Of a stretch of DNA of 22,132 nucleotides, positions 5,631 to 22,132 are shown in pieces. The notes below the pieces were generated by a model. It saw nothing but the letters and a program-made list of their open reading frames with translations, was not told the origin of the DNA and did not search any database. The number at the start of each line of letters is the position of its first letter. Position 1 is the first letter of the stretch. The translations under genes and the position numbers were made by a program. This DNA comes from a virus. The stretch covers positions 1-22,132 of IMG/VR virus record IMGVR_UViG_3300025736_000233; one strand, written 5' to 3'.

Positions 5631-5631
5631 A

Positions 5632-6108
5632 TCATATACTCCCCGCGTTTACGATATAACGTGCGTTAGTCCCCACGTAAATATCATGGCTAGAACCAGA
5701 TTTATTGTAGATATAAGCTTTCTGGACAATATTGTTATCATCTGTATTTCCCCAATCCAACCACAAAACTAACTCCCAGTCCCCAGGAGTAATATTTGAT
5801 CCACTAGGAATAAGATTGGCACCTGCCACTGAGTCCTGATAAACGGATGTGTATAATGTACCAATCAATCGTCTGCCACCTATTGTTGGTGTTACTGTTG
5901 CGGTATAACTCACAGCCTCACCATCTGCAACTGTACTTGAAGTAGAAGCAGTCCCAGTCAGATGTAAATTAATTCCAGAGGCTGTAATATATCCACCAGA
6001 GATTGTTGTAGTATTCCCTTCATTAATGAATCCATACAACTCACCAGGCTGATTTTCACCGCCTATTGTTATATTTTTTATTTGTGTTGGCACCCTTATG
6101 TTCGTCAT
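5632..6108 (-). CDS. IGG/QPG-domain virion protein, 158 residues
   Basis: This is a single beta-rich domain, collinear with the C-terminus of the 667-residue fibre that follows it. Shared landmarks in order are NITIGGENQPGE versus NLTIGGLKQPGQ, TASGINL versus TASGVNL, a VYQD/FYQG segment, GSNITPGDWEL versus GSNISAGNWEM, and LDWGNTDDNNIVQ versus EDWGSTDDDDIVQ. It is therefore a free-standing paralogue of that fibre's terminal module, perhaps a co-assembling partner or baseplate-level connector. The gene starts five bases after the hub stop with only a weak ribosome site, so coupled translation is likely. No known function can be assigned beyond a tail-structural role. Confidence 0.78.
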   Translation of the reverse strand: MTNIRVPTQIKNITIGGENQPGELYGFINEGNTTTISGGYITASGINLHLTGTASTSSTVADGEAVSYTATVTPTIGGRRLIGTLYTSVYQDSVAGANLIPSGSNITPGDWELVLWLDWGNTDDNNIVQKAYIYNKSGSSHDIYVGTNARYIVNAGSI

Positions 6109-6113
6109 AATGA

Positions 6114-8933
6114 TTATCCATCAACAGGTTTTGTTGGAATTGTAGCGGTAATAGAATCATCAAGGTTTCTCTGAATATCCTCAATTCTTTTAGACACAGA
6201 TGGCAATGCCTCTGATGCTTCTACTTCTAAATAATCTGGATAGTAAGTTGTTGAAATCACATGTAATACGTCAGATGTAACACCAGAGATTTCATAATCC
6301 CATCTTGAGGAATCCCATGTAGACTGATCCCAATAGGCAATTGCTTTTTGAGATGATTTTAAGTTTTCGATAGAGATTGTATCCCCTGGTTGGATAGATT
6401 CAATGTCATAGCCCTTAGTTGAATCTTCGCCATTATTATCGTATACCTTTAATATTGTTCTAATTGCTGGTTCCTCCCGCTCATCTAACCACTTATCAGC
6501 TTTAATATCAGCCGTACTTGTCAAAGTTACTCTTAAATCAGCCCACTTTTCTTCTTTCATACCCCATGAAGTGATAGATGAAGTTCGACTATATTTTCTA
6601 TATAGTTGTGGTCCGCCAGCAGGATCTCCGCCAACAAAGTAGAGAACGTTTCTTAAATTATCAATTCTCTTTTCTGGTTTCATATAGAAGATATCCTTGC
6701 CAATATAAAGTTTGTGGTCTGCTGTGGTTGATTTTTCCTTGAAATAAACTACCCCATCAGGGTCAATCCTGAAATACCAACCCTCTGGAGCTAACTCAAC
6801 TGTTTTCTCCATCGCCTGTTTCACTGTATTAACATTAAAGGTGTATGTTGCTATCGTACTGGTTAGGTCAATAGTACTATCCGTATAACTTAAGTGACCT
6901 CCATCAGCTTGATGTTTTTCAATAATGTCTTTCATGATGTTGCCAGGGTCTTCGCTGTAATACTGAAGGGCAGTATATCCATCAGAGTCTTTCAGAATTC
7001 TTAATCCAGATTCAACAACATAACCTAAAATAATTAACTCTAAATATTCTTGGCTTTCGTTAAGAACAGGAGAAAAACTAGCCAAGAACCCCCTGAATAA
7101 TAAGAATCCCGCAGGTTGATCTCTATCATAAACATAAATATCAATTTTTCTATCCAAGACAATATCCTCACCTTCACCGAACGCATCAACTTTTCTAGCT
7201 AATTGAACAGTAACTTCACCCACGCCTCCATTAATTACTGACCTAAAACTTGGTTCAGTTAAAACCTCATCGCCCCATACATCTTTGATATTAGTATCAG
7301 AATAGTACATCTTATAGGCAAATCTCTTCCTAAAATAGGTACTCTTTATAGAGGCAGTAACACTATTATCTTTAGTCTGTATGGCACTCATAAAAGCCTT
7401 AGCAGAGTTTACTTGAGTTTCGTTTGTTCTTAGAATATTGGCTTTAGCTGAGTTAGATTGTTGACCAGCCGATAGAATATTGACTAATGCTGAGTTTACC
7501 TTTGTTAAAATAACAACTATCTGAGCTTTAGCTGAATTATCATCAGTATTATTTTCAACTAGAATATCTGACTTAGCACTATTGGCTTGAGTTTCGTCTG
7601 TTCTTAAGATATTAGATTTAGCTGAACTGGCTTGACTTTTTGTCGGACTAATATCAGCTTTAGCAGAGTTCGACTGTGGAGTATTAATATTCGCTTTAGC
7701 AGAACTATCTTGGATGTTATCAGTGACTAAAATATTTACTTTGGCTGAGTTTACTTGCGAATTTGCAGCTAAGATGTTAGCTATAGCTGAGTTATCAGCC
7801 TTTGTAATAGTAAGTAAATCATCATCTTGGTTTTCACTTGTAGCGGGAGTTGTTGTTGATCCTGAAACACTGGTTCCATAATCTACTCTGATTCTACCTA
7901 TAGAACCTCCTCCTCCATCCCCACCGTCAGGTGATGCCCCACCTGTTCCTTTATTACAAGCGATTAAGTTAGTACCAATCGTTACTACATCACCTTTAAT
8001 TAAAACTGAACCACCAGCACCGCCACCACCTCCACCACATCGGAAATCAGAAGCTCCACCATTCGCACCATCATTAGTTATTGTTCCAGATAGAGTTACG
8101 GTTGGTGAAATTAAGAAAATTATTCCTCCGCCCTTCCCTCCTACACCATGAGTTTGTCCACCATCTGATTGTGAACCACCTCCACCACCTGCTGAACCAA
8201 AAAATATTGTTGTCAAATCAGCAGCACCATAAGATGTACCACCTGTTCCACCTGGATTTTGAGAAGAACCTGAACCGTTTTGTCCTGATACTCCATTGGC
8301 AGAATAGGCTCCTCCACCTCCACCTCCACCACCATCAGCACTATCTGAACCTTCTCCTCCACCCCCACCACCACCGTTAGCACCTGAAGCTAAATCAAAA
8401 TCTTCGTCAGGATGGCTACCACCTTGTTTTCCAGTTTGAGTTCCACTTGAAGCAGAACCAGCTCTATATCCCAAATCATCAGTATCAATAGTTCCAGCAA
8501 CAGTAATTGAAGTACTCGCACAAATAGCAACAAATCCTCCAACATCCCCACCCCAAGTAGTCCCAGTTAAAATCTGTTCAGAAGGACAACTAAAAGTCGT
8601 ATATTGAGGAACTAAAATAATCTGAGATTGATCATCTCCAGAATCCTGATAGGAATTAACAATGTTTGTAGTAAAAGTAACTAGAGTATCTTCAGTTGAA
8701 TCTACAGTACAAATCTCCCATGTTCCTGCATTAGTTGTAGTATTGCCCCTTGCTTTGTGAAGGATAACTATATCACCTGCTGAGAAAGAAGCCTCGTCTC
8801 CAGAAGCTACATCTACATGATCATCAGTAGCTGTTCCACTGCATGATTTGTAAACGTTTAAGGTTTCTGTTCCGCTAACGGTTTTAACTCCGTCTGCTCC
8901 GCTTCCGTAGATTGTTTGGGGTATCTGTGCCAT
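6114..8933 (-). CDS. Tail hub (Tal-like) protein with N-terminal Gly-rich adhesin and SAK linker, 939 residues
   Basis: There are three parts. Residues 1-370 are a Gly-rich adhesin-like domain paralogous to the 378-residue fibre at 1707-2843. Residues 381-529 are 11 SAK repeats. Residues about 531-939 read as a siphovirus tail-hub/tail-associated domain, with FAYKMYYSDTNIKDVWGDEV, SFRSVINGGVGEVTVQLARK, EGEDIVLDRKIDIYVYD, GFLLFRGFLASF and a late GDTISIENL motif. This pattern is common in proteins that follow the distal tail gene. The position directly after the distal tail gene supports the hub call. The order is unusual, since hub domains normally come first and adhesins last. The start at 8933 has an AGGAGG site 7 bases upstream. 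Confidence 0.85.
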   Translation of the reverse strand: MAQIPQTIYGSGADGVKTVSGTETLNVYKSCSGTATDDHVDVASGDEASFSAGDIVILHKARGNTTTNAGTWEICTVDSTEDTLVTFTTNIVNSYQDSGDDQSQIILVPQYTTFSCPSEQILTGTTWGGDVGGFVAICASTSITVAGTIDTDDLGYRAGSASSGTQTGKQGGSHPDEDFDLASGANGGGGGGGEGSDSADGGGGGGGGAYSANGVSGQNGSGSSQNPGGTGGTSYGAADLTTIFFGSAGGGGGSQSDGGQTHGVGGKGGGIIFLISPTVTLSGTITNDGANGGASDFRCGGGGGGAGGSVLIKGDVVTIGTNLIACNKGTGGASPDGGDGGGGSIGRIRVDYGTSVSGSTTTPATSENQDDDLLTITKADNSAIANILAANSQVNSAKVNILVTDNIQDSSAKANINTPQSNSAKADISPTKSQASSAKSNILRTDETQANSAKSDILVENNTDDNSAKAQIVVILTKVNSALVNILSAGQQSNSAKANILRTNETQVNSAKAFMSAIQTKDNSVTASIKSTYFRKRFAYKMYYSDTNIKDVWGDEVLTEPSFRSVINGGVGEVTVQLARKVDAFGEGEDIVLDRKIDIYVYDRDQPAGFLLFRGFLASFSPVLNESQEYLELIILGYVVESGLRILKDSDGYTALQYYSEDPGNIMKDIIEKHQADGGHLSYTDSTIDLTSTIATYTFNVNTVKQAMEKTVELAPEGWYFRIDPDGVVYFKEKSTTADHKLYIGKDIFYMKPEKRIDNLRNVLYFVGGDPAGGPQLYRKYSRTSSITSWGMKEEKWADLRVTLTSTADIKADKWLDEREEPAIRTILKVYDNNGEDSTKGYDIESIQPGDTISIENLKSSQKAIAYWDQSTWDSSRWDYEISGVTSDVLHVISTTYYPDYLEVEASEALPSVSKRIEDIQRNLDDSITATIPTKPVDG
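7347..7793 (-). repeat. SAK repeat block, 11 units
   Basis: In-frame repeats in the hub protein (residues 381-529), with units such as NSAKVNILVTDNIQD, SSAKANINTPQS, SSAKSNILRTDETQA and NSALVNILSAGQQS. They join the Gly-rich adhesin to the hub domain. The DNA at 7663-7691 is identical to two segments inside the giant repeat gene near 20.3 and 20.9 kb. Confidence 0.9.
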
Positions 8934-8944
8934 AAGCTATCCTC

Positions 8945-9721
8945 CTATAAATACCTCGGAGAATAGGATATCTTTAAATTTCCCCCTTGCACTCCTCCTC
9001 CGAAAGTAATTTTAAAACTCTGACTCCCTGGTTCCCATCGAGAAAATACACCAGTATGATTCCGTTGCGTTACATCTTGTAACACTTTGAAAGTCTTATA
9101 ATCGAAAGTCATTGATGAGCTATAACTCAATATCGTTCCGTTATCACTGCCAGCCCAATCAACATATTCACCTGAGTTTAATATTTCTAATCTAACTCCT
9201 GATGTAGTAGTTGTCCCAGAACCAGATGTAGTTTCATATCTAAGAGATGGCTCAGCAAAATATGATCCAGAAATCGTAGTTGTAAAAGTCTGTGCTGATG
9301 TCCCAGAAACGATTGTCATTGTAGCCGTAATCTCATCAGTATAAGCAAAAGGATCAGCACATAGGAACTCTGCTTCATATGGAACGAAATCCTGAGCATA
9401 GTGTGGATCAGAGACAGAAACATAAGTACACGTAGCTGTGTATGTTCTATCAGTATCAATCTTAAGAATTTGTGATACTTTCTGAAGCTCCGTATTAAGA
9501 CTATCTATCTTGCTTTTCAAATCTGATGGACTTGAACCTAAAATATAACCTCTAATTCTAATCCTCTTATCCCCAAACTCTTCGGATAAAAGTTTAACTC
9601 CAGGTTTCCTTGAGATTGGTTTTGTTGTATCATCTCTTACTGGCCAACCACGATAAGTGATATTAGTTGTTATATAGTTGTCATCTTGTAGACTAAATCC
9701 TGAAAATTCTGGAAGTGCCAT
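8945..9721 (-). CDS. Distal tail protein (Dit-like), 258 residues
   Basis: The first 130 residues follow the siphovirus distal-tail pattern: MALPEFSGFSLQDDNYITTN, RGWPVRDDTTKPISRKPG, KRIRIRGYILGSSPSDLKSKIDSLN, and SDPHYAQDFVPYEAEFLCADPF. This N-terminal domain makes the hexameric ring at the tail tip. The C-terminal part (about 131-258) is beta-rich and Thr/Ser-rich, possibly a galectin-like or carbohydrate-binding domain. It lies between the tape measure gene (3-nt gap) and the hub gene, the standard position for this protein. The TAG stop is followed by the AGGAGG site of the hub gene. Confidence 0.85.
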   Translation of the reverse strand: MALPEFSGFSLQDDNYITTNITYRGWPVRDDTTKPISRKPGVKLLSEEFGDKRIRIRGYILGSSPSDLKSKIDSLNTELQKVSQILKIDTDRTYTATCTYVSVSDPHYAQDFVPYEAEFLCADPFAYTDEITATMTIVSGTSAQTFTTTISGSYFAEPSLRYETTSGSGTTTTSGVRLEILNSGEYVDWAGSDNGTILSYSSSMTFDYKTFKVLQDVTQRNHTGVFSRWEPGSQSFKITFGGGVQGGNLKISYSPRYL

Positions 9722-9724
9722 ATA

Positions 9725-12175
9725 TTACCACCCTGCTCCCGACTGAGCTAACTCCATCCTACGACCGAGGATGTCACTAACTCTATTTGCTAATTCGTTT
9801 ACTCTTGATGAACTATCTAAATTGAATGATCCAGTAATATTAACAGTAATTCCACCTGTACCTAACCCAGAGTTAACATCAACCCCAGTTGTAGGAATAA
9901 CTCTTTCTCCTCCATGAGCCATAATTGGCACTGCCGTACCTACTGCCCCAGGAACAATACCCCCATGTTGCCCTGTCCATCCAGGCGCTTCATGTCTAGT
10001 TCCTACCCCTCGTTCAACTCCTGATACTGTAAACCACTCCCTTATCTTTGAAATTGCATCTCCAATCTTACTTATTAAATTACCCCAAGCTGTTTCTTCG
10101 CTTTCTACAGCCTTTACTACATCTTTACTAGATTCTATTTTCCTTTTTTCCTCGTCCTGTATATTTATAAGAGCTGTTTGACTATCTTCTACAGATGTAG
10201 TCACGTCTTCGTTAGCAACTTCTAGATTACCCAAAGCCCCTTCAAGCACAAGTTCCTGTTCACGAGCTTCAAGCGAATCTTTACCATACTGGAGAGTGAC
10301 TTCTGATAATGTTCTAGTAGCTCTTTCGACTGCGAGAACAGCACGTTTTTGTCTGAGTTTTGCTGCATCGGCATCATCAGCAACCTTCTCTCCTATTCTA
10401 TAAGCTTCATCTAAATCGCTTTGTGCCTGTATCTCTCCTCTTTTAGCCGCACTAATCAAATCTGTCTTTGTTATCAAAATATCGGATTTTAAAATCATTA
10501 AGCCCATCGCTGTCGTAGCTCCTGCAATCGCAAGGGTCAAAGCTACTAAGGGATGAGCTGCTAATAACATCAGTGCTGGAATAAGTCTTGTGGCAATTGT
10601 GTTTACAAGACCAACCATCCCCAGCTTTAAAACACCAATAGCTTGTACTACTACACCAAGATAAACTAATACTGGTCCTAATGCTGCTACGAACATAGCA
10701 AACTTAATAATGTTTTTCCTTACTCCTTCATCCAAATCTGTAAATTTCTTAGCTAACTGAAGAACCTTGTCTATCATAGGGACAATTATTGGTACGATAT
10801 CTCTCCCCACGAATTCCTTAAACTCATCAAATTTTGCGTTTAACCTACCAAACTGAACAGCTGCTGAACCAGAAGATATACCAAGAGCTGTCATCATCCT
10901 ATCCATGTTTTTCTGATCGTCACTTGTTTCTTTAATAATTCTATCGTATTCAGATACTGTTGCAGTTCCATCATCCATCATTTTGATAAATCTATCTACA
11001 TGATGCCTACCAGCAATAACAGTTGCTGTGTTCATCTTCTGAATATCATCCATGTTTTTCCACTCCACAGCCAATTCTTTAAGAATATCATCCATACCTT
11101 TCATCTCACCAGTTCCAGTTACTATACTACCGACATATTCCTCAGTTGTCCCTGTTGCTGCTGCGATCTGTTTATTATAAGCACTAATTTGTGTTGAAAT
11201 CTTAGCTATCTGTTTTTCTTCTTTCTCACCTACTTCTCCAGCTTCCTCAGAAACAGCTATATAGTCTCTTAACTTTTCTTCTTGTTTTGTTTTCAACTTG
11301 ATTAATCTCTCTACCTCATCTGAGTTTCCACCTATCGTTTTAGTCAGGGTTGCAGTTCTTTCTTCTGTTGTTTCAATACTAATTCCAAGCCTTTCAAACT
11401 CATCTTTAATTGCTGCTGTTGGTGCTATAATTCTAGAAAATACCGTTTTAAGTGAACGAGCAGCTAGTGTGGCTTTTTCACCCCTACCAATTAAAACACT
11501 CATCATCGCACCAACTTCTTTAATCCCTAATCCAGCCAATTTTCCAATAGACGCTACTCTCCCTAAACCAACTGAAAAATCACTTAATTGAGCAGCACCA
11601 GCATCTTCAACAGCGTTAATATCTGCTATTGTTTGAGTTAGTTCTTTTCCAGTAACGCCATAGTTTTGCATCACAGCCACAACTAAATCCATAGATTTAG
11701 CCAAATCCAAGTTACCTAATTTAGACACTTCAACAGCCTTGGTAGTACCATCAATTATCTCTTGTGTTTGAAAGCCCATAGCTGCAAGTTCCTGCATCAC
11801 ATCTATAATTTCGACCTTATTCATACCCCAATAGAGAGCTAATTCCTGTGCTGCTGGAATTAAATTAGCGTTCATCTCTGCTGCTGTTCCACTAAATACC
11901 TTTTGCAATCGACGAGTGGCTGTATCAACTGCAACGAATTTATCAACGGCTACTTTACCAAAAGCAACGATAGGTGCAGTTAATTCAACAGAAAGGACAC
12001 GACCAGTCCTTTGCATGTTTCTCCCCATCTCCTCTAGCCTCTTACCAGAAGATTTGGTCACAGTTTCAATCTTTTGTCCCATACCAGCAACGGCTTGGGA
12101 AACTTTTTGTAACCCCGCCTCTACTTGAGCTGCTCCTATGAGCTTAAGTGCGATTAAGACTTCTCTACTCGCCAT
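9725..12175 (-). CDS. Tail tape measure protein, 816 residues
   Basis: The N-terminal 350 residues match the TP901-1/PhageMin tape-measure pattern: REVLIALKLIGAAQVEAGLQ, RTGRVLSVELTAPIVAFGKV, FVAVDTATRRLQKVF, AAQELALYWGMNKVE and LAAMGF. Helical coiled segments occur near residues 290-345 and 580-690. A hydrophobic stretch at about 487-562 (FAMFVAALGPVLVYLGVVV and onward) is the likely membrane-active part. The C-terminus holds a Gly/His-rich linker (HEAPGWTGQHGGIVPG). No peptidase domain is seen. Known scaling of about 0.15 nm of tail per residue would predict a tail near 120 nm. The gene follows the chaperone frameshift product after 2 bases. Confidence 0.93.
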   Translation of the reverse strand: MASREVLIALKLIGAAQVEAGLQKVSQAVAGMGQKIETVTKSSGKRLEEMGRNMQRTGRVLSVELTAPIVAFGKVAVDKFVAVDTATRRLQKVFSGTAAEMNANLIPAAQELALYWGMNKVEIIDVMQELAAMGFQTQEIIDGTTKAVEVSKLGNLDLAKSMDLVVAVMQNYGVTGKELTQTIADINAVEDAGAAQLSDFSVGLGRVASIGKLAGLGIKEVGAMMSVLIGRGEKATLAARSLKTVFSRIIAPTAAIKDEFERLGISIETTEERTATLTKTIGGNSDEVERLIKLKTKQEEKLRDYIAVSEEAGEVGEKEEKQIAKISTQISAYNKQIAAATGTTEEYVGSIVTGTGEMKGMDDILKELAVEWKNMDDIQKMNTATVIAGRHHVDRFIKMMDDGTATVSEYDRIIKETSDDQKNMDRMMTALGISSGSAAVQFGRLNAKFDEFKEFVGRDIVPIIVPMIDKVLQLAKKFTDLDEGVRKNIIKFAMFVAALGPVLVYLGVVVQAIGVLKLGMVGLVNTIATRLIPALMLLAAHPLVALTLAIAGATTAMGLMILKSDILITKTDLISAAKRGEIQAQSDLDEAYRIGEKVADDADAAKLRQKRAVLAVERATRTLSEVTLQYGKDSLEAREQELVLEGALGNLEVANEDVTTSVEDSQTALINIQDEEKRKIESSKDVVKAVESEETAWGNLISKIGDAISKIREWFTVSGVERGVGTRHEAPGWTGQHGGIVPGAVGTAVPIMAHGGERVIPTTGVDVNSGLGTGGITVNITGSFNLDSSSRVNELANRVSDILGRRMELAQSGAGW

Positions 12176-12177
12176 AT

Positions 12178-12755
12178 TTACTTTTTAGCATCTCTGATTT
12201 TTCTTACGATGCTTTCAGCCTCCTCATAAATTGCTATTCTTTCTAAAAACCAGAGTGGTTGGGACATAATCTCCCAATAATTCCACCCAGTTTTTTTACT
12301 AATAATCACTTCGTTAAAACCTGATATAAGCTTTGGTTTACTAGACTTAAGGCTTATCACAAGTTTCGTTATTAATTTTTTTTTTGGTCTGTTGTTAACC
12401 TTTTCTCCCCAGTAAGATCAGTAACCTTCTGTACTAGAAAGTCATAATCTTTACGAGGAAGTTTTTTGATGTTTTCTACGGTCGGTTTGATATCTTTACC
12501 ATCCTTGTCGGTAAAGTCCCAACCCTTAACCATAACCTTTAAGGTCGCCTCTTGAGCTTCATAATACCTAGATGCTCTAATACTCATAGCAGTACTGGTC
12601 TGACCAGCCACTATGGGAACTGAAGTATCTGTAGTATAAATCTTCTCTATTTCTAGAGAATCATTAGCTATAAGGCAATCGTACAATTCAACCTTACCCC
12701 CTGTTTCTGGGAGTGAAATAGAAATCGTACCCCTAAAATCTTTTAATACGGGCAT
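12178..12755 (-). CDS. Tail assembly chaperone, -1 frameshift fusion (gpGT-like), about 192 residues
   Basis: A -1 slip on the A10 run at 12385-12376 joins the 127-residue frame (12372-12755) to the downstream frame ending at 12178. After the slip the frame reads K-L-I-T-K-L-V-I-S-L-K without a stop. The downstream part contains TGWNYWEIMSQPLWFLERIAI, a hallmark of the T portion of tail assembly chaperones. That part has no ATG and no ribosome site before its only GTG. In lambda-like phages the G and GT proteins bind the tape measure and recruit tail-tube subunits. The location between tail tube and tape measure is exactly right. Both products are expected, with the fusion as the minor one. 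Confidence 0.85.
12372..12755 (-). CDS. Tail assembly chaperone, unshifted product (gpG-like), 127 residues
   Basis: The product of normal decoding stops at TAA right after the A10 run (ending DQKKN). It starts MPVLKDFRGTISISLPETGG and contains QEATLKVMVKGWDFTDKDGK and IKKLPRKDYDFLVQKVTDLT. This is the small alpha/beta chaperone pattern typical between major tail protein and tape measure. A GGAGGG ribosome site lies 6 bases before the ATG at 12755. It should be the abundant form, with the frameshift fusion as the minor form. Confidence 0.85.
   Translation of the reverse strand: MPVLKDFRGTISISLPETGGKVELYDCLIANDSLEIEKIYTTDTSVPIVAGQTSTAMSIRASRYYEAQEATLKVMVKGWDFTDKDGKDIKPTVENIKKLPRKDYDFLVQKVTDLTGEKRLTTDQKKN
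12376..12385 (-). other. Programmed -1 ribosomal frameshift site (A10)
   Basis: The minus strand carries ten consecutive A residues, read in zero frame as CAA AAA AAA AAT then TAA. The run lies immediately before the zero-frame stop, and the -1 frame continues into the T-like segment. Sequence length error in the homopolymer is the main alternative. Confidence 0.8.
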
Positions 12756-12793
12756 ATGTACCCTCCTTTTTTAATTAATTATTAATTCAGATT

Positions 12794-13747
12794 TTAATAA
12801 ACGTCACTCTTGTCGTTTCCAAGTCTGACATCAATCAGTCTAGCTCCTGCGTCTACTTTGTCTTCAGCTACAAAATTGCAGTTTGCAACAAAGAAGTCGT
12901 CTAGTCCTGTTGTGATTTCATTCTCGTTTAGTCTAAATTCTGGAATCCTGATTCGCATCTCTTCATTAGCGTTACCTGTGAAAGTGATCTCCATAGCTCG
13001 TTTATTCAGAGCATAATAGGCATCCCTATCAGTAACAGAATCAAAGAAGACTGTGTATGAACCAGATACTCTGCATCCTTTTGTTCGGATAGCTGAGACA
13101 TCTGCACTTCCACTTCTGTGAATCATCTCCAACTCGTTAGCAATAGTCAAACTAAAGTCATTAATTGCTGTCGCGCTAGCTGAACTAGCTGCCGAAAGAG
13201 TTGATCCAAATTTAACAGACATATCTGGGAAAGCAAAAACTGTTCCAGAAGTTGTTGTCGCTGTTTGAGCTGAAACTACGGTTGGGAATTTACCCATCAT
13301 AGATGCTGTCAAAGTAGCTAAACCATCTGAAATCTCAAGATTGAGTTCGTTAGTAGCAACATAAGTATATTGCTGAACGTCAGTGTCTCTACCCTGAATG
13401 ATAGTCGCTGTCTTAGGAGTATTTCCAGAAGCTGTTACATAGAAAGTGTGGTAATTAGGTGTGCCAGTAGTCAACTGTTCGTTGCCCATAGCTGCCTTCC
13501 AAAGATAACCTGAATTGTGAACATCACAATTTATAGCCAAGTCTCCTTCAGACCACTGCTTGCCACTAACAGAATCTTTATCCATCAATCTTGATGTCTT
13601 TGAGGCAATATCCTCAATAGGCTCATGATGGCCTCTCATCGAAATATCAGTGTAAGGTAAATATACATCTGGTGTTGTATTGGCCTCCCCAGGAGTCGTT
13701 TCAAGAGCGAACCCTGCGTAGCCAAGTCTACCAATTGTTATTGACAT
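12794..13747 (-). CDS. Major tail (tube) protein, 317 residues
   Basis: The N-terminus, MSITIGRLGYAGFALETTPG with VYLPYTDISMRGHHEPIED, matches the pattern of siphovirus tail-tube proteins that form stacked hexameric rings. It continues with GDLAINCDVHNSGYLWKAAMG, LEISDGLATLTASMMG and a C-terminal NFVAEDKVDAGARLIDVRL. Long beta-rich stretches with Thr/Ser-rich loops are typical. It lies between the tail terminator and the chaperone gene. The ATG at 13747 is preceded by a translation leader shared almost base for base with the major capsid gene, which fits the high demand for both proteins. Confidence 0.88.
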   Translation of the reverse strand: MSITIGRLGYAGFALETTPGEANTTPDVYLPYTDISMRGHHEPIEDIASKTSRLMDKDSVSGKQWSEGDLAINCDVHNSGYLWKAAMGNEQLTTGTPNYHTFYVTASGNTPKTATIIQGRDTDVQQYTYVATNELNLEISDGLATLTASMMGKFPTVVSAQTATTTSGTVFAFPDMSVKFGSTLSAASSASATAINDFSLTIANELEMIHRSGSADVSAIRTKGCRVSGSYTVFFDSVTDRDAYYALNKRAMEITFTGNANEEMRIRIPEFRLNENEITTGLDDFFVANCNFVAEDKVDAGARLIDVRLGNDKSDVY

Positions 13748-13748
13748 A

Positions 13749-13773
13749 ATTTATTTTCACCACCTTTCAAATG
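13749..13773 (-). promoter_or_regulatory. Translation leader of the tail-tube gene, shared with capsid gene
   Basis: The 25 bases upstream of the start (CATTTGAAAGGTGGTGAA then AATAAAT) match the capsid leader at 16766-16790 at 24 of 25 positions. The element includes the ribosome site AAAGGTGGTGA and the TGA stop of the upstream gene. Confidence 0.7.
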
Positions 13774-14189
13774 CTGTCAACGATATCTATAGCGTTGACA
13801 TCAATTTCTAATAATCGTGTAGCGTGTTCACGGATAGTATAGTCAGCCCGCCACACAATTGGCTCAACATACTTGCATGTACCTGATAGTGTAGTATCCA
13901 TATCTAGTGCCTTCTCAAATTCATCTATAACCGATGTCATTATGTCCTCAGCCTCTTCTGGAGTCTGACCAGTTCCTTTTTGCCTCTCCTGATAGAGTTT
14001 AATAGTAAACCCTCTTCGTCTCAAGTTATGAGCAGTTGAAGCAAACTCAGCTTCGCCATCTCTTAATGTAAGTGTAGCATATGGGTACTTTCCATCAACA
14101 TTGGAAACCTCCCAATCCCACGCTCCTTTCAGAGATTGCATCTCGTTTAACTTTGTCAATAGTTTTACGCGAATTGCTGACACACTCAT
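13767..14189 (-). CDS. Tail terminator-like protein, 140 residues
   Basis: The size, the mixed alpha/beta pattern and the position directly before the tail-tube gene match the tail terminator/completion proteins that cap the tube before it joins the head. Visible segments are IRVKLLTKLNEMQSLKGAWD, YPYATLTLRDGEAEF, RRRGFTIKLYQERQ, a helix EEAEDIMTSVIDEFEKAL, and a final VWRADYTIRE with RLLEIDVN. It overlaps the upstream gp10-like gene by 4 nt. The ATG at 14189 is preceded by AAAGGTGGT. Identification rests on order and pattern rather than a diagnostic motif. Confidence 0.75.
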   Translation of the reverse strand: MSVSAIRVKLLTKLNEMQSLKGAWDWEVSNVDGKYPYATLTLRDGEAEFASTAHNLRRRGFTIKLYQERQKGTGQTPEEAEDIMTSVIDEFEKALDMDTTLSGTCKYVEPIVWRADYTIREHATRLLEIDVNAIDIVDSI

Positions 14190-14638
14190 CTTACCACCTT
14201 TTCTATTGAATTTTCCACTGCTCTATAAAAGAACAATTTAACCTTATCAAAAGTTGCTTCAAAAAATTTATATGCTTTTTGTGGTTTGCGACTAATTGCT
14301 CTTGCAACTAAGAAAGATTCCTCGTCTGATAGACCCATATGTTTAATATTAGGCCAGTGAGCCGATGCACCTTCTTCTGCAAAAATAGCATAATCCCTTG
14401 GAAGTGAACCATCAGATGATCTTGAACCACCAGCACCTATTTCCCTATATCCAACACTTTTCTTTGTTACTGCCATACTATCAGCAAGAGCACCAGTATT
14501 TACAGGTGCACCAGCACTCAAATCATCTTTAACAAAATCTGCTGTTTGATCCAAAACATCCTCCACCTCTCTAGGAAGTACTTTAGCCATACCAGTAAGA
14601 TCAGCCATTAACTTCTTATCACCAGTTATTGTTATCAT
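14186..14638 (-). CDS. HK97 gp10-type neck/tail-completion protein, 150 residues
   Basis: The motif GAPVNTGALADSMAV (about residues 43-57) is the signature of the HK97 gp10/putative tail-component family. It is preceded by the typical helix KVLPREVEDVLDQTADFVKD. IFAEEGASAHWPNIKH matches the family's usual E-x-G-T/A-x-x-x-x-A/P segment, and the C-terminal helix FDKVKLFFYRAVENSIEKVV is also typical. The protein joins the completed head to the tail. It overlaps both neighbours by 4 nt, indicating coupled translation within the neck gene run. Confidence 0.88.
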   Translation of the reverse strand: MITITGDKKLMADLTGMAKVLPREVEDVLDQTADFVKDDLSAGAPVNTGALADSMAVTKKSVGYREIGAGGSRSSDGSLPRDYAIFAEEGASAHWPNIKHMGLSDEESFLVARAISRKPQKAYKFFEATFDKVKLFFYRAVENSIEKVVR

Positions 14639-14967
14639 ACGTTGTCCTCGTCAAATTTAACTAAAGTTAATTCATAATGTGGGGCAGGATCCATCGACCA
14701 ATCTTCTATTCCCTTTACTCTTAATATTTCACCTGTTCCTGAAACAGTCACATAATCTGAAACTAATATTCCCGATGTAGTAGTAAAGCCAATATATGTT
14801 TGTCCTAAAACACCTTGAGCAATTGCTGTCTCTGCTGGAGAAGCTGGTTGAAGTTGTACTTTAACGGCTGCTAAAGCTGAATTTATCTGATACTGTTCCT
14901 TTGAAGTATCAGTAGTATCTTTAGTTAATCGCTTGATACTGATAATAGCATCTGTAATTACACTCAT
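14635..14967 (-). CDS. Head closure/head-tail stopper protein, 110 residues
   Basis: The product is a small beta-barrel-like protein: TDAIISIKRLTKDTTDTSKE, AVKVQLQP, VLGQTYIGFTT, DYVTVSGTGEILRVKGIEDW and HYELTLVKFD. This length and strand pattern fits SPP1 gp16-like/HK97 gp7-like head closure proteins, which plug the portal channel after packaging. The gene sits between the connector and the gp10-like gene, as expected. The ribosome site is AAGGTGG, 8-10 bases before the ATG. No diagnostic motif is present, so the name depends on order and fold pattern. Confidence 0.75.
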   Translation of the reverse strand: MSVITDAIISIKRLTKDTTDTSKEQYQINSALAAVKVQLQPASPAETAIAQGVLGQTYIGFTTTSGILVSDYVTVSGTGEILRVKGIEDWSMDPAPHYELTLVKFDEDNV

Positions 14968-16765: not shown

Positions 16766-16790
16766 ATTTATATTCACCACCTTTCAAATG
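16766..16790 (-). promoter_or_regulatory. Translation leader of the capsid gene, shared with tail-tube gene
   Basis: CATTTGAAAGGTGGTGAA followed by TATAAAT ends at the ATG. Twenty-four of 25 bases equal the tail-tube leader at 13749-13773. The AAAGGTGGTGA part can pair with the 16S 3' end (UCACC, with CCUU across a bulge) and sets the start at 16765. Confidence 0.7.
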
Positions 16791-17843: not shown

Positions 17844-17873
17844 AAAAAAACCACACCCATTACGGGGTGCGGT
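17844..17873 (-). terminator. Intrinsic terminator-like hairpin in the leader of the scaffold-like gene
   Basis: A 9-bp stem ACCGCACCC (17873-17865) / GGGUGUGGU (17858-17850) with one G-U pair and a 6-nt loop runs straight into U7 (17850-17844), sharing one U with the stem. The GGAGGG ribosome site follows at once. It is downstream of the promoter at 17940-17911, so it can act as an attenuator, and it can also end transcripts arriving from the protease operon. Confidence 0.75.
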
Positions 17874-17910
17874 GATAATCATCCGTTGATATTACACCAA
17901 CCTTATACAT

Positions 17911-17940
17911 ATTATGGCAAACTTTTTTTTAGTTTGTCAA
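17911..17940 (-). promoter_or_regulatory. Sigma70-type promoter for the scaffold/capsid genes
   Basis: TTGACA (17940-17935), 18-nt spacer, CATAAT (17916-17911). The spacer carries a perfect dyad CAAACT-A7-AGTTTG starting at the C of the -35 box, a possible operator. The first 12 bases (CTTGACAAACTA) equal those of the promoter at 19409. Confidence 0.68.
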
Positions 17941-17960
17941 GTGCGGATAAGGTCTTGGAT

Positions 17961-17988
17961 TTGATTCCTCTGTTATTTATTGTATAAT
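17961..17988 (+). promoter_or_regulatory. Plus-strand promoter giving a leaderless transcript
   Basis: TTGATT (17961-17966), 16-nt spacer, TATAAT (17983-17988). The ATG of the plus-strand gene begins only 7 bases after TATAAT, at the expected transcription start, and no Shine-Dalgarno is present. Confidence 0.65.
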
Positions 17989-17995
17989 CTAACCT

Positions 17996-18214
17996 ATGAG
18001 TTACAAGAACCCTGAAGACAAAACTAACTACATGGCGGATTATAATCCAAAATACTATGTAAATAATCGTGTCAAAATACTCAAATATCGTAAAGGAAGG
18101 CGTGAGCAAGATAGGGAGAACTGGAGAAGGTGGTGGGCAAAAAAACTAGATAAGAGAAGGAAAGAGAAGATTAGTCTAGGACAGATTTACAAAACCAAGA
18201 AGATGTTTAGATAG
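17996..18214 (+). CDS. Small basic protein of 72 residues, the only plus-strand gene
   Basis: The product starts MSYKNPEDKTNYMADYNPKYY and continues NNRVKILKYRKGRREQDREN, then is rich in Lys, Arg and Trp. This resembles the basic helical lead-in (repeated NR-x-K-I/L-x-Y-x-R) found before HNH nuclease domains and in small phage DNA-binding proteins, but no HNH residues follow. A strong TATAAT box sits 7 bases before the ATG, so the mRNA is probably leaderless. The gene is divergent from the scaffold-like gene and convergent with two tiny minus-strand genes (stop to stop 6 nt). It is transcribed against the structural operon. A regulator or a leftover nuclease fragment is possible. Confidence 0.65.
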   Translation: MSYKNPEDKTNYMADYNPKYYVNNRVKILKYRKGRREQDRENWRRWWAKKLDKRRKEKISLGQIYKTKKMFR

Positions 18215-18220
18215 TAAAGA

Positions 18221-18358
18221 TTAGCTTTTATGCCCCATTGGTTTCATATTAGAAGGCTTAGTGTAAACCCTCTTAGGCTTCTTGGGTTTATCTTTGGGCG
18301 AGAACACTGATCTCTTCTTTGGATTAAAAGTATAGGTACTTGTCGTTTCTGATGTCAT
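18221..18358 (-). CDS. 45-residue basic protein carrying a capsid N-arm motif
   Basis: The ATG at 18358 overlaps the stop of the upstream 44-residue gene (TAATG), and the frame ends in TAA at 18221. Residues 4-21 read E-TTSTYTFNPKKRSVFSP. This matches capsid residues 20-37 (E-TTATNTFSPGTRSVFSP) at 13 of 18 positions without gaps. The rest is a Lys/Pro-rich tail (KDKPKKPKRVYTKP). No membrane segment or Cys is present. I recognise no family. The capsid-like motif, and the location between protease and scaffold-like genes, suggest a capsid assembly, cementing or protease-recognition role; this is inference. Confidence 0.68.
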   Translation of the reverse strand: MTSETTSTYTFNPKKRSVFSPKDKPKKPKRVYTKPSNMKPMGHKS

Positions 18359-18492
18359 TAAATTTGAATAGCTTCATCCACAATGGATTTTGATTCTGGT
18401 TCTGGTTCAGTAAACTCTATTGGCTTTACGAATACCACTGGTTTTACAACCACTTTTTTCTTCCGTGGTTTTCTCTTTCTCTTTCTAGCCAT
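18358..18492 (-). CDS. 44-residue highly basic protein following the prohead protease
   Basis: The ATG at 18492 lies two bases after the protease stop, and the frame ends in TAA at 18358 coupled to the next gene by TAATG. The product is MARKRKRKPRKKKVVVKPVV, then FVKPIEFTEPEPESKS and a short acidic end. It has a poly-basic head and an acidic Glu/Pro tail, like small internal head or DNA-contacting proteins. No family is recognised. Tight coupling on both sides and the charge pattern support it being translated. Confidence 0.62.
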   Translation of the reverse strand: MARKRKRKPRKKKVVVKPVVFVKPIEFTEPEPESKSIVDEAIQI

Positions 18493-18494
18493 AT

Positions 18495-19304
18495 TTATAA
18501 ATTATCTTTAAGTTGCTGGAAATAATCTTTCTCCCAGTTTGGCTGCATGATCTGTTTATTCTGGATAGCATGCTCCACTATTTCTCCTAACTCATTAACT
18601 TGCTCTTCTATCTTCTTCTCTTTTTTCTCTTCCTTCTTCTTAGCTGCCTCTTTTTCGTGTTCAAGTTCGAACATAGCTGCTTTCTTAATAGCTTTTAACA
18701 CGCCTCTAATATGTTTCACTGGTCTACCTATCTCTTCACAGCTTTCGATAAGCATTGTAAGAGTACTAGACATCGACAATAATCTGTCAGCAATTTTAAT
18801 ACCTGCGAATTTAGGGGCATCATCTGACATCCCATATGGTGCTGTTGGCATCTGTTTTTCCATAACTTTACCTCCTTGATTAATTTTAACCATGCTAAAC
18901 ATGGCTTTTGGATTAGCTGGTCTATCTACTAAAGAGATTTCGTTTAAAGCTAATTCATGAATAATATTACCAATTTTCTTGTTAACTACCCCACCGATAG
19001 AGAAACCGTTATAGACTTTTTCTTTAACTTTTTCCCAGGCATTATTGTCAATAATCTTACCCCTTATCCAAAGACCCTTTTTCTTATCATCAACTCTTGT
19101 AGCAATCGTTTTACCCACTGCTGACCACTGATGCATCTCCCGAAGATTAGCATATTTCATATACTCAGGCAGAGCCTTCTTAATAGCAGAAAGCTTTACA
19201 ACCTCACCTTGGCTATCTACAGCCTCTGTGGTAGCAAAACCCTCAACGATTCTCTTATCTTCATCTACCTTAGTAATCTGTGCATAAAGTTTTACGTCGT
19301 TCAT
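18495..19304 (-). CDS. Prohead maturation protease (S78/XkdF-like) with C-terminal coiled coil, 269 residues
   Basis: The start is the ATG at 19304, with AGGAGG 3 bases upstream, not the GTG 30 bases earlier. Residues 1-140 follow the phage prohead protease pattern. IVEGFATTEAVDSQGEVV is followed by catalytic His58 in REMHQWSAVGK, catalytic Ser102 in YNGFSIGG, and LNEISLVDRPANPKAMFSM with Asp127 as the probable third conserved site. The C-terminal half has helices (ADRLLSMSSTLTMLIESCEE) and a charged coiled coil (KKKEEKKEKKIEEQVNELGE), as in proteases fused to a scaffold-like tail. It processes capsid assembly proteins during maturation. It begins an operon with its own promoter at 19409. Confidence 0.9.
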   Translation of the reverse strand: MNDVKLYAQITKVDEDKRIVEGFATTEAVDSQGEVVKLSAIKKALPEYMKYANLREMHQWSAVGKTIATRVDDKKKGLWIRGKIIDNNAWEKVKEKVYNGFSIGGVVNKKIGNIIHELALNEISLVDRPANPKAMFSMVKINQGGKVMEKQMPTAPYGMSDDAPKFAGIKIADRLLSMSSTLTMLIESCEEIGRPVKHIRGVLKAIKKAAMFELEHEKEAAKKKEEKKEKKIEEQVNELGEIVEHAIQNKQIMQPNWEKDYFQQLKDNL

Positions 19305-19324
19305 AATCCTCCTAATAAAATAGC

Positions 19325-19340
19325 CATACCACACGGCATG
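19325..19340 (-). other. Hairpin in the protease leader
   Basis: CAUGCC (19340-19335)-GUGU-GGUAUG (19330-19325), 6 bp with one G-U, is followed by GCUAUUUUAUU and then the AGGAGG site. It lies between promoter and start, as in the other two promoter leaders, but the U-run is weak. A second small inverted repeat, AAAGA-N3-TCTTT, lies at 19349-19361. Confidence 0.4.
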
Positions 19341-19410: not shown

Positions 19411-22132
19411 TTAAACTCTATCGTCATAAATCCCTTTCTTTCTTCCGTATGGGAACGACATTGGTGAGTAGATCATCGCCTCTTTAGATTTGTATGGTCT
19501 TGGTACATAAATCTGAACTTGCCTAAGTTCTGCTTTAGCAGAGTTATTATTAGTAATATCAACAAGTACGATGTTCGCCTTAGATAAATTATTCTTAGTA
19601 TTATCAGCCACAAAGATATTTGCTTTACTACTATTAGGTTGCTGTCCTGATACCAAGATATTTGCTAATACAGAGTTATTCTTAGAAAGTGATACTAAAA
19701 TATTGGCTTTGGCAGAGTTCGACTGTGGAGTGTTAATATTCGCTTTGGCTGAATTAATTGCTGTATTACCAGTGACTAGAATATTTGCCTTAGCTGAGTT
19801 GTCATCAGTATTATCTGTTACAAGAATGTCTGCTTTCACTGAGTTAACTTTAGTTTCTATTTCTCCTAAGATATTAGCTTTAACAGAGTTAGCGTTTTCA
19901 TTATCAACGACTAGAATATTAGACTTAGTAGAGTTATTTTGCGGAGTATTAATATTCGCTTTGGCTGAATTATCTTGTGTATTATTAGCTACAAAGATAT
20001 TTGCTTTAGCCGAACTATCATCTGTTTCCGTTGTAACTATACTAGCCTTAGCCGAACTATCCTGAGTTTCGTCTGTTCTTAGAATATTGGCTTTGGCATA
20101 TGTAGCATAATTATTTGCTACTACAATACTTGCTTTAGCAGAACTGTCTTTAGATAAAGTTGTAACAATATTAGCTTTAGCTGAGCTATCATTGGTATTA
20201 TCCGTAATAAGAATATTAGATTTAGATTGATTGTCTTGAGTTTCACCAGTCCTCAAGATATTAGCTTTAGCTGAATTGGCTTGAGATACTGTCGGTTGTA
20301 TATTAGCTTTGGCAGAGTTCGACTGTGGAGTATTAATATTAGCCCTTACAGAGTTCGACTGTGGAGTGTTAATATTAGATTTAGATGAGTTAACGTTGGT
20401 TTCGGTTACTACAATGCTCGCTTTAGCTGAATTATCCTGCGTATTATTTACTACTAAAATATTAGCTTTGATCGAATTAGGTTGTTGCCCAACCGCTAAA
20501 ATATTCGCCAATGAAGAGTTATTTTTAGATAGTGTAGCCAAAATATTAGCTTTAGATGAACTTACCTTAGTCGGTATTGTAGAAATAGAGGATTTAGCAC
20601 TATTTGGCTGTTGACCAACTGCGATGATATTCCCTAATGCGGAGTTATTTTTAGTATTATCTGTCGCTAGTATGTTTAACTTGGCGGAACTATCCTGAGT
20701 ATTAGTTACAACAATAGATGCTTTAGCACTATTACCCTGTGGAGTGTTAATGTTTGCTTTTGTAGAGTTTATCTGTGTGTTATCTGTAACGAGAATATTT
20801 GCCTTAGCACTATTAGGTTGTTGTCCAATCGCCAATATGTTTACTAATACAGAGTTATTTTTAGATAGTGATGCTAAAATATTAGCCTTGGCAGAGTTCG
20901 ACTGTGGAGTATTAATATTCGCTTTTGCAGAGTTAACGTTGGTTTCGGTTACTACAATACTAGCCTTAGCGGAATTTTCTTGAGTGTTTGTTGTAACGAT
21001 AGATGCTTTGGCTGAGTTAGCCTTAGGATAAGTAAATATCCAACCATCATTATTAGCTGTATCAACTGAGTGTATTCCAGCATACCAAGCTGCCCCACCA
21101 GTGGCGTTAGAATTACTTAGATCAAGGTAATCACAATTAACTGTTCCTGAAGCCTTAGAAAGAATATGTTGGGTAGAATCATCGTCACTATTAATAGTTA
21201 TTAAATTTCCAGAAGTTCCAGATACAGTAAATGTGGTTACTGTTGTGGTTGTGCTTCTATAAAATTTAATTATTGTACTAGCATCTGCTTTAAAATCATT
21301 GAATGTGTTTGATCCAGTAAACTCAAATGAAGTATCTTCACCCTCATAAGTTAACCAAATATTATTATATGTTTTGCCACCACCATTAAAATATATCGCT
21401 TCAGCGTTTTCAATAATTTTAATGGTTGATGTTTCTGGAGTAATCGTTACAACTTCACCATCATTCTCGTCTATTTCCCATCCAAATGTTGTCTCCCAAG
21501 TTCCTGAACCCATAATAATGGTTGGAATATAGCCAGCCCTAGCCTCAAAAAATAAAGCAGCAGCAGTTACATTATGGTTATTAGCATCAAAAGTTCCATT
21601 ATTAAAATAAAATTTCCCCTCAAGAGTAGTTATAAAGTCATCTTGTAAAGCCCATTCACCACCACTACCATTAAAATATATCTCACATCCTGAAAGGCCT
21701 CCTAAATCCATTCCATTAAATGTAAGAGTATGTCCAGCATCAGTAGCTTCAAAATTTAGATAAATTTCCCCAGTAAGGCTTAAGCCACTTTCACCCACAA
21801 ATGAACCATAGACATATATGTCCTCATCTACATATTCAATGCTGTATGTATGTCCAGAAGTTGAAGTGAAATCATGGCATATAGCTCCATCTCCATCAGT
21901 ACTTATTATTCCCCCTCCTCCAAATCCTGAATTAGAGTCTATAAAGACATCTTCTGTAGCAGTAGGAATAGGAACACCACCAGCACCACCACTTGCTACT
22001 GACCAATGGGCTGTATCACTCCAATTTCCTGTACCACCAATCCAATAACGCTCATGATTTTCAATAAAAGCCTTAGCAGAGTTAGCTTGAGTTTCGTCTG
22101 TTCTCAATATGTTCGCCCTAGCAGAATTAGGC
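19411..22132 (-). CDS. Giant SAK-repeat fibre-like protein with a beta-helix-like domain (N-terminus beyond window)
   Basis: The frame is open to the right edge: before the first possible TTG start at 22107 it still reads P-NSARANI, so the true start is outside. At least 906 residues are present. After two SAK units comes a domain of about 350 residues (22063-21019). It starts RYWIGGTGNWSDTAHWS, passes GVPIPTATEDVFIDSNSGF, has short repeating strands with FNG/FNN turns, and ends WYAGIHSVDTANNDGWIF. This is a pattern common in phage and surface proteins and reads as a parallel beta-helix. Then follow 36 SAK units and a unique C-terminus, QIYVPRPYKSKEAMIYSP through GRKKGIYDDRV. It lies upstream of the prohead protease, an unusual place for a fibre. 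Binding or spacer function is inferred. Confidence 0.82.
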   Translation of the reverse strand, partial: PNSARANILRTDETQANSAKAFIENHERYWIGGTGNWSDTAHWSVASGGAGGVPIPTATEDVFIDSNSGFGGGGIISTDGDGAICHDFTSTSGHTYSIEYVDEDIYVYGSFVGESGLSLTGEIYLNFEATDAGHTLTFNGMDLGGLSGCEIYFNGSGGEWALQDDFITTLEGKFYFNNGTFDANNHNVTAAALFFEARAGYIPTIIMGSGTWETTFGWEIDENDGEVVTITPETSTIKIIENAEAIYFNGGGKTYNNIWLTYEGEDTSFEFTGSNTFNDFKADASTIIKFYRSTTTTVTTFTVSGTSGNLITINSDDDSTQHILSKASGTVNCDYLDLSNSNATGGAAWYAGIHSVDTANNDGWIFTYPKANSAKASIVTTNTQENSAKASIVVTETNVNSAKANINTPQSNSAKANILASLSKNNSVLVNILAIGQQPNSAKANILVTDNTQINSTKANINTPQGNSAKASIVVTNTQDSSAKLNILATDNTKNNSALGNIIAVGQQPNSAKSSISTIPTKVSSSKANILATLSKNNSSLANILAVGQQPNSIKANILVVNNTQDNSAKASIVVTETNVNSSKSNINTPQSNSVRANINTPQSNSAKANIQPTVSQANSAKANILRTGETQDNQSKSNILITDNTNDSSAKANIVTTLSKDSSAKASIVVANNYATYAKANILRTDETQDSSAKASIVTTETDDSSAKANIFVANNTQDNSAKANINTPQNNSTKSNILVVDNENANSVKANILGEIETKVNSVKADILVTDNTDDNSAKANILVTGNTAINSAKANINTPQSNSAKANILVSLSKNNSVLANILVSGQQPNSSKANIFVADNTKNNLSKANIVLVDITNNNSAKAELRQVQIYVPRPYKSKEAMIYSPMSFPYGRKKGIYDDRV
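19525..21018 (-). repeat. SAK repeat array, 36 units
   Basis: Contiguous in-frame units of 12-15 residues have the core N/S-S-A-K-A-N-I-L/V. The variable ends fall into a few classes: INTPQS (12 residues), ILVTDNTQD (15), IVVTETNV (14), ILASLSKN (14), ILAIGQQP (14) and ILRTDETQ (15). The sequence of classes INTPQS, SLSKN, GQQP, DNTQ recurs as a larger unit. Codons vary between copies, while some DNA segments are identical. Confidence 0.92.
22066..22132 (-). repeat. SAK repeat block continuing past the window edge
   Basis: Two units (NSARANILRTDETQA, NSAKAF) precede the beta-helix-like domain of the giant protein, so that domain is flanked by SAK repeats on both sides. The block continues beyond the right edge. 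Confidence 0.85.

Follow-up and report, generated by a model that had tools for sequence, protein, structure and literature searches.

The three virion proteins described here, a giant protein, a tail hub protein, and a fibre, carry arrays of a short repeat with the core NSAKANI. In these proteins and in array proteins of other phages, the units have fixed lengths and conserved positions, and fusions and gene order connect the arrays, which join folded modules (some of them lectin-like), to head-neck and tail-hub proteins. The arrays probably form beta-structured stalks of a tailed phage, keeping binding modules at a distance from its neck or hub. From gene order and the fused domains we infer that the array proteins lie on the virion surface, where an elongated beta stalk would serve in host binding.

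The window, the whole stretch of DNA that was analysed, is an entire IMG/VR record of 22,132 bases; the record is linear and is probably a genome fragment. Its minus strand carries a gene set typical of a tailed phage: the genes for the giant protein, a head maturation protease (18495-19334, minus strand; throughout the close relatives it neighbours the giant gene on the downstream side), a coiled-coil protein, an SU10-type major capsid protein, a head-tail adaptor, tail proteins, a tape measure, Dit, the hub, the fibre, and an Amidase_2 endolysin. The giant open reading frame (ORF) is cut by the end of the window, so further repeat units may follow. The roughly 640 bases between the protease gene and the coiled-coil gene (17857-18494) contain no coding-strand ORF of at least 80 amino acids and no Rfam match; ORFs of that size that touch this gap are encoded on the opposite strand or terminate within the neighbouring genes. 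A 25-base stretch at 16766-16790 recurs with one mismatch at 13749-13773, each copy just before a structural gene, and may be a regulatory or ribosome-binding region common to both.

The main array of the giant protein occupies positions 19525-21018 on the minus strand, as a preliminary description of this DNA had stated, and consists of 36 units that fill residues 372-869 without interruption. Two more units are found at the N-terminal edge of the ORF (22063-22128, minus strand). The two repeat stretches are separated by a folded module of about 345 amino acids, the RYW module (RYWIGGTGNWSDTAHWS type; 21019-22062, minus strand), which has homologues in several phages, including in other array proteins; four tandem copies are present in Limnohabitans phage DC31. 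The giant protein ends in a tail rich in Pro, Tyr, Lys, and Arg (19411-19524, minus strand; RPYKSKEAMIY...PYGRKKGIYDD) that recurs in relatives, and array proteins encoded at the protease locus have such a C-terminal tail in common (e.g., RPYKSKEAMIYSP..PYGRKKGIYDD). We propose that this tail is a virion anchor.

The hub and fibre genes are likewise on the minus strand. The hub protein begins with a Gly-rich region (7794-8933) that resembles the product of 1707-2843; it is followed by an array of 10 cores, or 11 if a degenerate one is counted, at 7365-7793 (previously bounded at 7347-7793), and immediately thereafter by the hub domain (6114-7364). A few units likewise immediately precede this domain in the L168 and L175 orthologues. 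The fibre protein opens with module 1 (5091-5630), followed by array 1 with 4 units (4938-5090). A copy of module 1, module 2 (about 4344-4937), is flanked by both arrays; array 2 has 6 units (4113-4343), and the C-terminal module (3627-4112) resembles the product of 5632-6108. The recount gave 59 units in total, reproducing the earlier figure of about 59, and the 38 units of the giant protein were also recovered, whereas the remainder was split into 10 for the hub and 11 for the fibre instead of 11 and 10. This difference is due solely to the degenerate hub unit NSVTASI and the fibre unit DSAKAAL; the latter is probably part of a folded module. The placement of the arrays between recognisable modules, also noted earlier, was upheld.

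In each unit, the seven-residue core precedes a loop that is 5, 7, or 8 residues long. A few loop types recur (NTPQS, LVTDNTQD, LRTDETQ, VVTETNV, and LAVGQQP) and are common to the giant, hub, and fibre proteins. The repeat is far above chance level: strict cores number 29, 5, and 9 in the giant, hub, and fibre proteins, respectively, compared to means of 0.009, 0.0035, and 0.004 in 2,000 shuffles per protein, with a maximum of one strict core in any shuffle. Spacings between cores were determined in 17 arrays from 13 phages, with every permitted value (10 to 18) receiving the same bonus. The 746 spacings comprised 556 of 14 residues, 163 of 15, 15 of 12, and none of 13, with 12 for all other values together; about 36 of these spacings were counted twice, since the array of L176 is part of the L065 array. 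The unit length first given as 12-15 residues holds for 12, 14, and 15; however, a length of 13 practically never occurs.

In 698 units from 16 arrays, core positions 1, 3, 5, and 7 carry small or apolar residues and positions 2, 4, and 6 polar ones, an alternation like that of a recurring beta strand whose one side is buried. Position 7 is apolar in 100% of these units, position 5 is Ala, Gly, or Ser in 95%, and position 4 is Lys or Arg in 89%; the consensus core across arrays is [I/N]-x-A-K-[A/G]-x-I. The core codons are mixed and mostly close to the background of the other genes, and adjacent units in the same set of 698 are no more similar than distant ones (excess identity of -0.3% at distance 1). 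The autocorrelation between neighbouring units also gave no signal when used as a test of one-unit versus two-unit coils. Tandem Repeats Finder reported only one stretch in the giant array (36-bp, 2.3-copy). Recent tandem DNA duplication is ruled out by the mixed codons, the Tandem Repeats Finder result, and the absence of neighbour similarity. Mixed codons and the lack of similarity between neighbours instead indicate that the units are old and have diverged, with selection on the protein maintaining the core.

The repeat family appears to be new to the databases searched, in line with the preliminary description, which had named no family for it; the stalk-type job is already known. Searches of Pfam-A, NCBIfam, and PHROGs gave no credible match on the arrays, the few sub-threshold matches being to unrelated families. 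A sequence-profile search against the PDB also gave no credible match (best, a designed 36-residue peptide, E 0.011); the matches were to designed peptides with AKAEIL repeats and were rejected as composition. A keyword search of open-licence papers returned no description of the NSAKANI repeat.

A profile search of viral sets had been suggested as a check, and it showed that other phages also carry the repeat, alongside lectin-like modules and neck or tail proteins. IMG/VR was searched with DNA patterns containing two spaced cores and then with a profile built from the arrays. Arrays were found in about 18 distinct environmental viruses or populations: the window (with the near-identical L166), L020, L167, L169, L170, L175, the L065 population, L070, L172, L179, L182, L184, L185, L186, L188, L190, L193, and L066. 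A single-core DNA pattern matched 48 loci in IMG/VR, near the number expected by chance, and these loci were retained only if several units were present after HMM scoring. No array was found in INPHARED phages or PLSDB plasmids. In GTDB, the two-core pattern matched 67 loci, none of them convincing by HMM; because the same pattern recovers just 3 of the 17 known arrays, this result is weak evidence against cellular copies. The L193 protein with SAK-type units (12125-14707) also contains another short repeat (ARIHGQDTD / ARITG).

Structures were predicted with AlphaFold2 as monomers. The model of eight window units (43 array segments in the alignment) had a pLDDT of 82.5 and a pTM of 0.73; each unit in it forms a single nine-residue strand, in register with positions 2-10. 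For 20 units (27 segments), the pLDDT was 63.6 and the pTM 0.46, with two short strands per unit. Both models are all-beta with regular strands and differ in detail; AlphaFold2 can exaggerate regularity when an alignment of repeats is supplied. Judged from these models, the array likely adopts a regular beta structure. No match at E <= 1e-3 was obtained for either model in Foldseek searches against the PDB and BFVD; the weak PDB matches of both were mostly to parallel beta-solenoids (best, FapC at 0.017 and CsgA at 0.46). The earlier idea of a solenoid or flexible rod thus fares well in that regular beta structure and not disorder is predicted, and less well in that the two models conflict and no fold match is significant. 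The fold may be a solenoid, a meander, or a trimeric rod. The weaker and differing 20-unit model and the absence of a fold match at E 1e-3 count against the reading of the arrays as stalk repeats.

The low confidence of the 20-unit model, along with a Ser, Thr, Asn, and Gln content of 46% in the main array, would suit flexible, mostly disordered linkers in which length alone is important. We consider such linkers unlikely. They leave unexplained why lengths of 12, 14, and 15 but not 13 occur over hundreds of spacings, and why position 7 is always apolar, position 5 nearly always Ala, Gly, or Ser, and position 4 mostly Lys or Arg; such positional conservation together with fixed lengths would hardly be expected of a disordered linker. 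In addition, the charge-hydropathy value of 0.455 against a boundary of 0.422 falls on the folded side, and the eight-unit model is confident.

Comparison of the window with L166 revealed 99.9% identity over 8.2 kb, after which the match stops inside the giant array. The point at which this near-identical contig (L166/L009) ceases to match lies at 19594-19627; beyond it, L166 is unrelated in register yet still encodes repeats. Within the window, the hub array at 7395-7694 and the giant array at 20044-20343 share 73% DNA identity over 300 bases without gaps, and the order of the loop types is preserved. Fibre module 1, which is next to repeats in the fibre gene of the window, is also present in an L167 array protein encoded upstream of the protease. 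The L166 switch, the block common to the hub and giant genes, and the occurrence of module 1 in L167 support exchange through the arrays, with array change within a species known from one contig pair. All arrays of one genome share sequence, which would make homologous recombination between genes possible.

These observations could be taken further, to arrays that are primarily recombinational and provide shared homology for shuffling binding modules between genes and strains; the abrupt loss of identity inside an array, the common block, and the identical modules that flank arrays in different genes all agree with such a role. We regard it as quite improbable, however: units are only about 65-85% identical at the DNA level, the amino acid conservation is greater than a DNA seam requires, and one population (L063, L065, L072, L081, and L094) has DNA that is 99.98-100% identical, including the array. 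The notion that the arrays are always hypervariable was dropped, since the five contigs of this L065 population have identical arrays. Several of these contigs end inside the array. Across the set, many contigs do so; this was not taken as evidence of variation, because repeats break assemblies anyway.

In the clade of the window, the array gene is immediately before the head protease gene. Among 76 protease loci with upstream sequence, an array was found upstream in all five of the closest relatives and in none of the 71 more distant loci, and only 1 of 80 related hubs passes the repeat profile. With these counts, the term universal linker, which had been used for the repeat, is too strong. 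L167 has three consecutive array genes before the protease; L169 also has three, and in addition a fourth that contains just one core. In the relative L020, two ORFs that resemble free-standing HNH endonucleases (1422-2102 and 6852-7562) are located among structural genes, one of them separating the array gene from the protease. The relative L170 has, between its protease and scaffold genes, an open frame of 2592 amino acids (4883-12658, plus strand) in which domains of the nucleotidyltransferase, DNA ligase, Dam methylase, HNH, and beta-lactamase-fold types are combined. LAGLIDADG and intein splicing domains are also present in this frame, and visual inspection suggests that it may contain three inteins.

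In other phages (L172, L179, L182, and L188), the array gene adjoins the head-tail adaptor gene, and in some viruses the array is located between the capsid and head-tail adaptor genes. In L070, one array protein has a C-terminal head-tail adaptor domain (PHROG 442, E 8e-19) that shares 22% identity with the adaptor of the window (E 7e-9), and the next array protein has a C-terminal Phage_HCP-like domain (E 5e-4, under the Pfam curated cut-off). Fusion to the adaptor (L070), fusion to the hub (window, L168, and L175), and adjacency to the adaptor gene all point to a neck or tail appendage. A Concanavalin-like lectin domain (PF13385, LamG) interrupts the arrays of L167 (E 5e-17) and L070 (E 2e-11).

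Separate lectin modules in several array proteins also argue against units that themselves bind the host surface or glycans, in which case the array would be a multivalent adhesin and not a spacer. Variable loops on a fixed core and an exposed Lys in every unit would fit such an adhesin; however, the loops fall into few recurring types per genome and no known binding family was matched, and we give this reading little credence. A location of the giant protein inside the head, which the position of its gene directly before the protease and scaffold genes in the window clade might suggest, is very improbable: the hub and fibre proteins contain the same repeats, and in other phages these are found with lectin modules and joined to adaptors.

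If the arrays are stalk repeats, each unit would add one beta strand or a strand pair plus a turn to an elongated stalk. The C-terminal end of the stalk would be anchored either on the hub or on the neck, in the latter case through the adaptor, the head-completion-like domain, or the short basic tail. The stalk would present the binding modules at a distance from the virion. The passage of blocks and modules between genes by homologous recombination, which the arrays would also allow, would be a secondary effect. More tentatively, the very short beta units might constitute a new stalk fold that forms whiskers on the neck ring and, in unrelated uncultured phages, acts as an adhesin stalk and as a homology seam for the movement of modules among neck, fibre, and hub genes; we see this as possible but doubtful.

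The triple beta-spiral of adenovirus and reovirus fibres, which has repeats of about 15 residues, is similar in repeat length. Both have alternating apolar residues, and the proposed stalk would likewise be an elongated viral one; however, 14 residues dominate in the arrays, which are without the conserved turn Gly or Pro (column 11 is Gly in 17% and Pro in 2%). The weak structural matches recall the beta-solenoids of FapC, curli CsgA, and secreted adhesins, from which the arrays differ in repeat length and motif. The curli CsgA repeat has about 22 residues and a Gln/Gly/Asn motif, in contrast to the units of 12, 14, or 15 residues and the consensus core found here. Fibritin, the neck whisker of T4-type phages, would resemble the proposed stalk in being a neck-attached fibre; it is an alpha-helical coiled coil, whereas beta structure is predicted for the arrays. 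The tblastn matches of fibritin to the array (E 0.07-0.7) were at chance level and were rejected as not significant.

In function, the proposed stalk would work like the neck passage structure of lactococcal 936 phages, which has carbohydrate-binding modules (PMC6669499), in that host-binding modules would be shown from the neck. The abstract of that paper describes no repeat stalk of the NSAKANI type, and the likeness is one of job. It is also documented that modules are shuffled in neck and receptor-binding proteins (PMC10684548), in a text that does not describe the NSAKANI repeat where it was consulted. Repetitive stalks with binding modules are a known type of phage part; the NSAKANI repeat is absent from the family databases and solved structures searched, connects head-neck and tail proteins within the same virion, and is fused to the head-tail adaptor in some phages. 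If confirmed, it would provide a sequence handle by which neck-displayed adhesins of uncultured phages could be sought, and a candidate for a new stalk fold. It would also make it possible to test whether neck, fibre, and hub genes exchange modules via common repeats.
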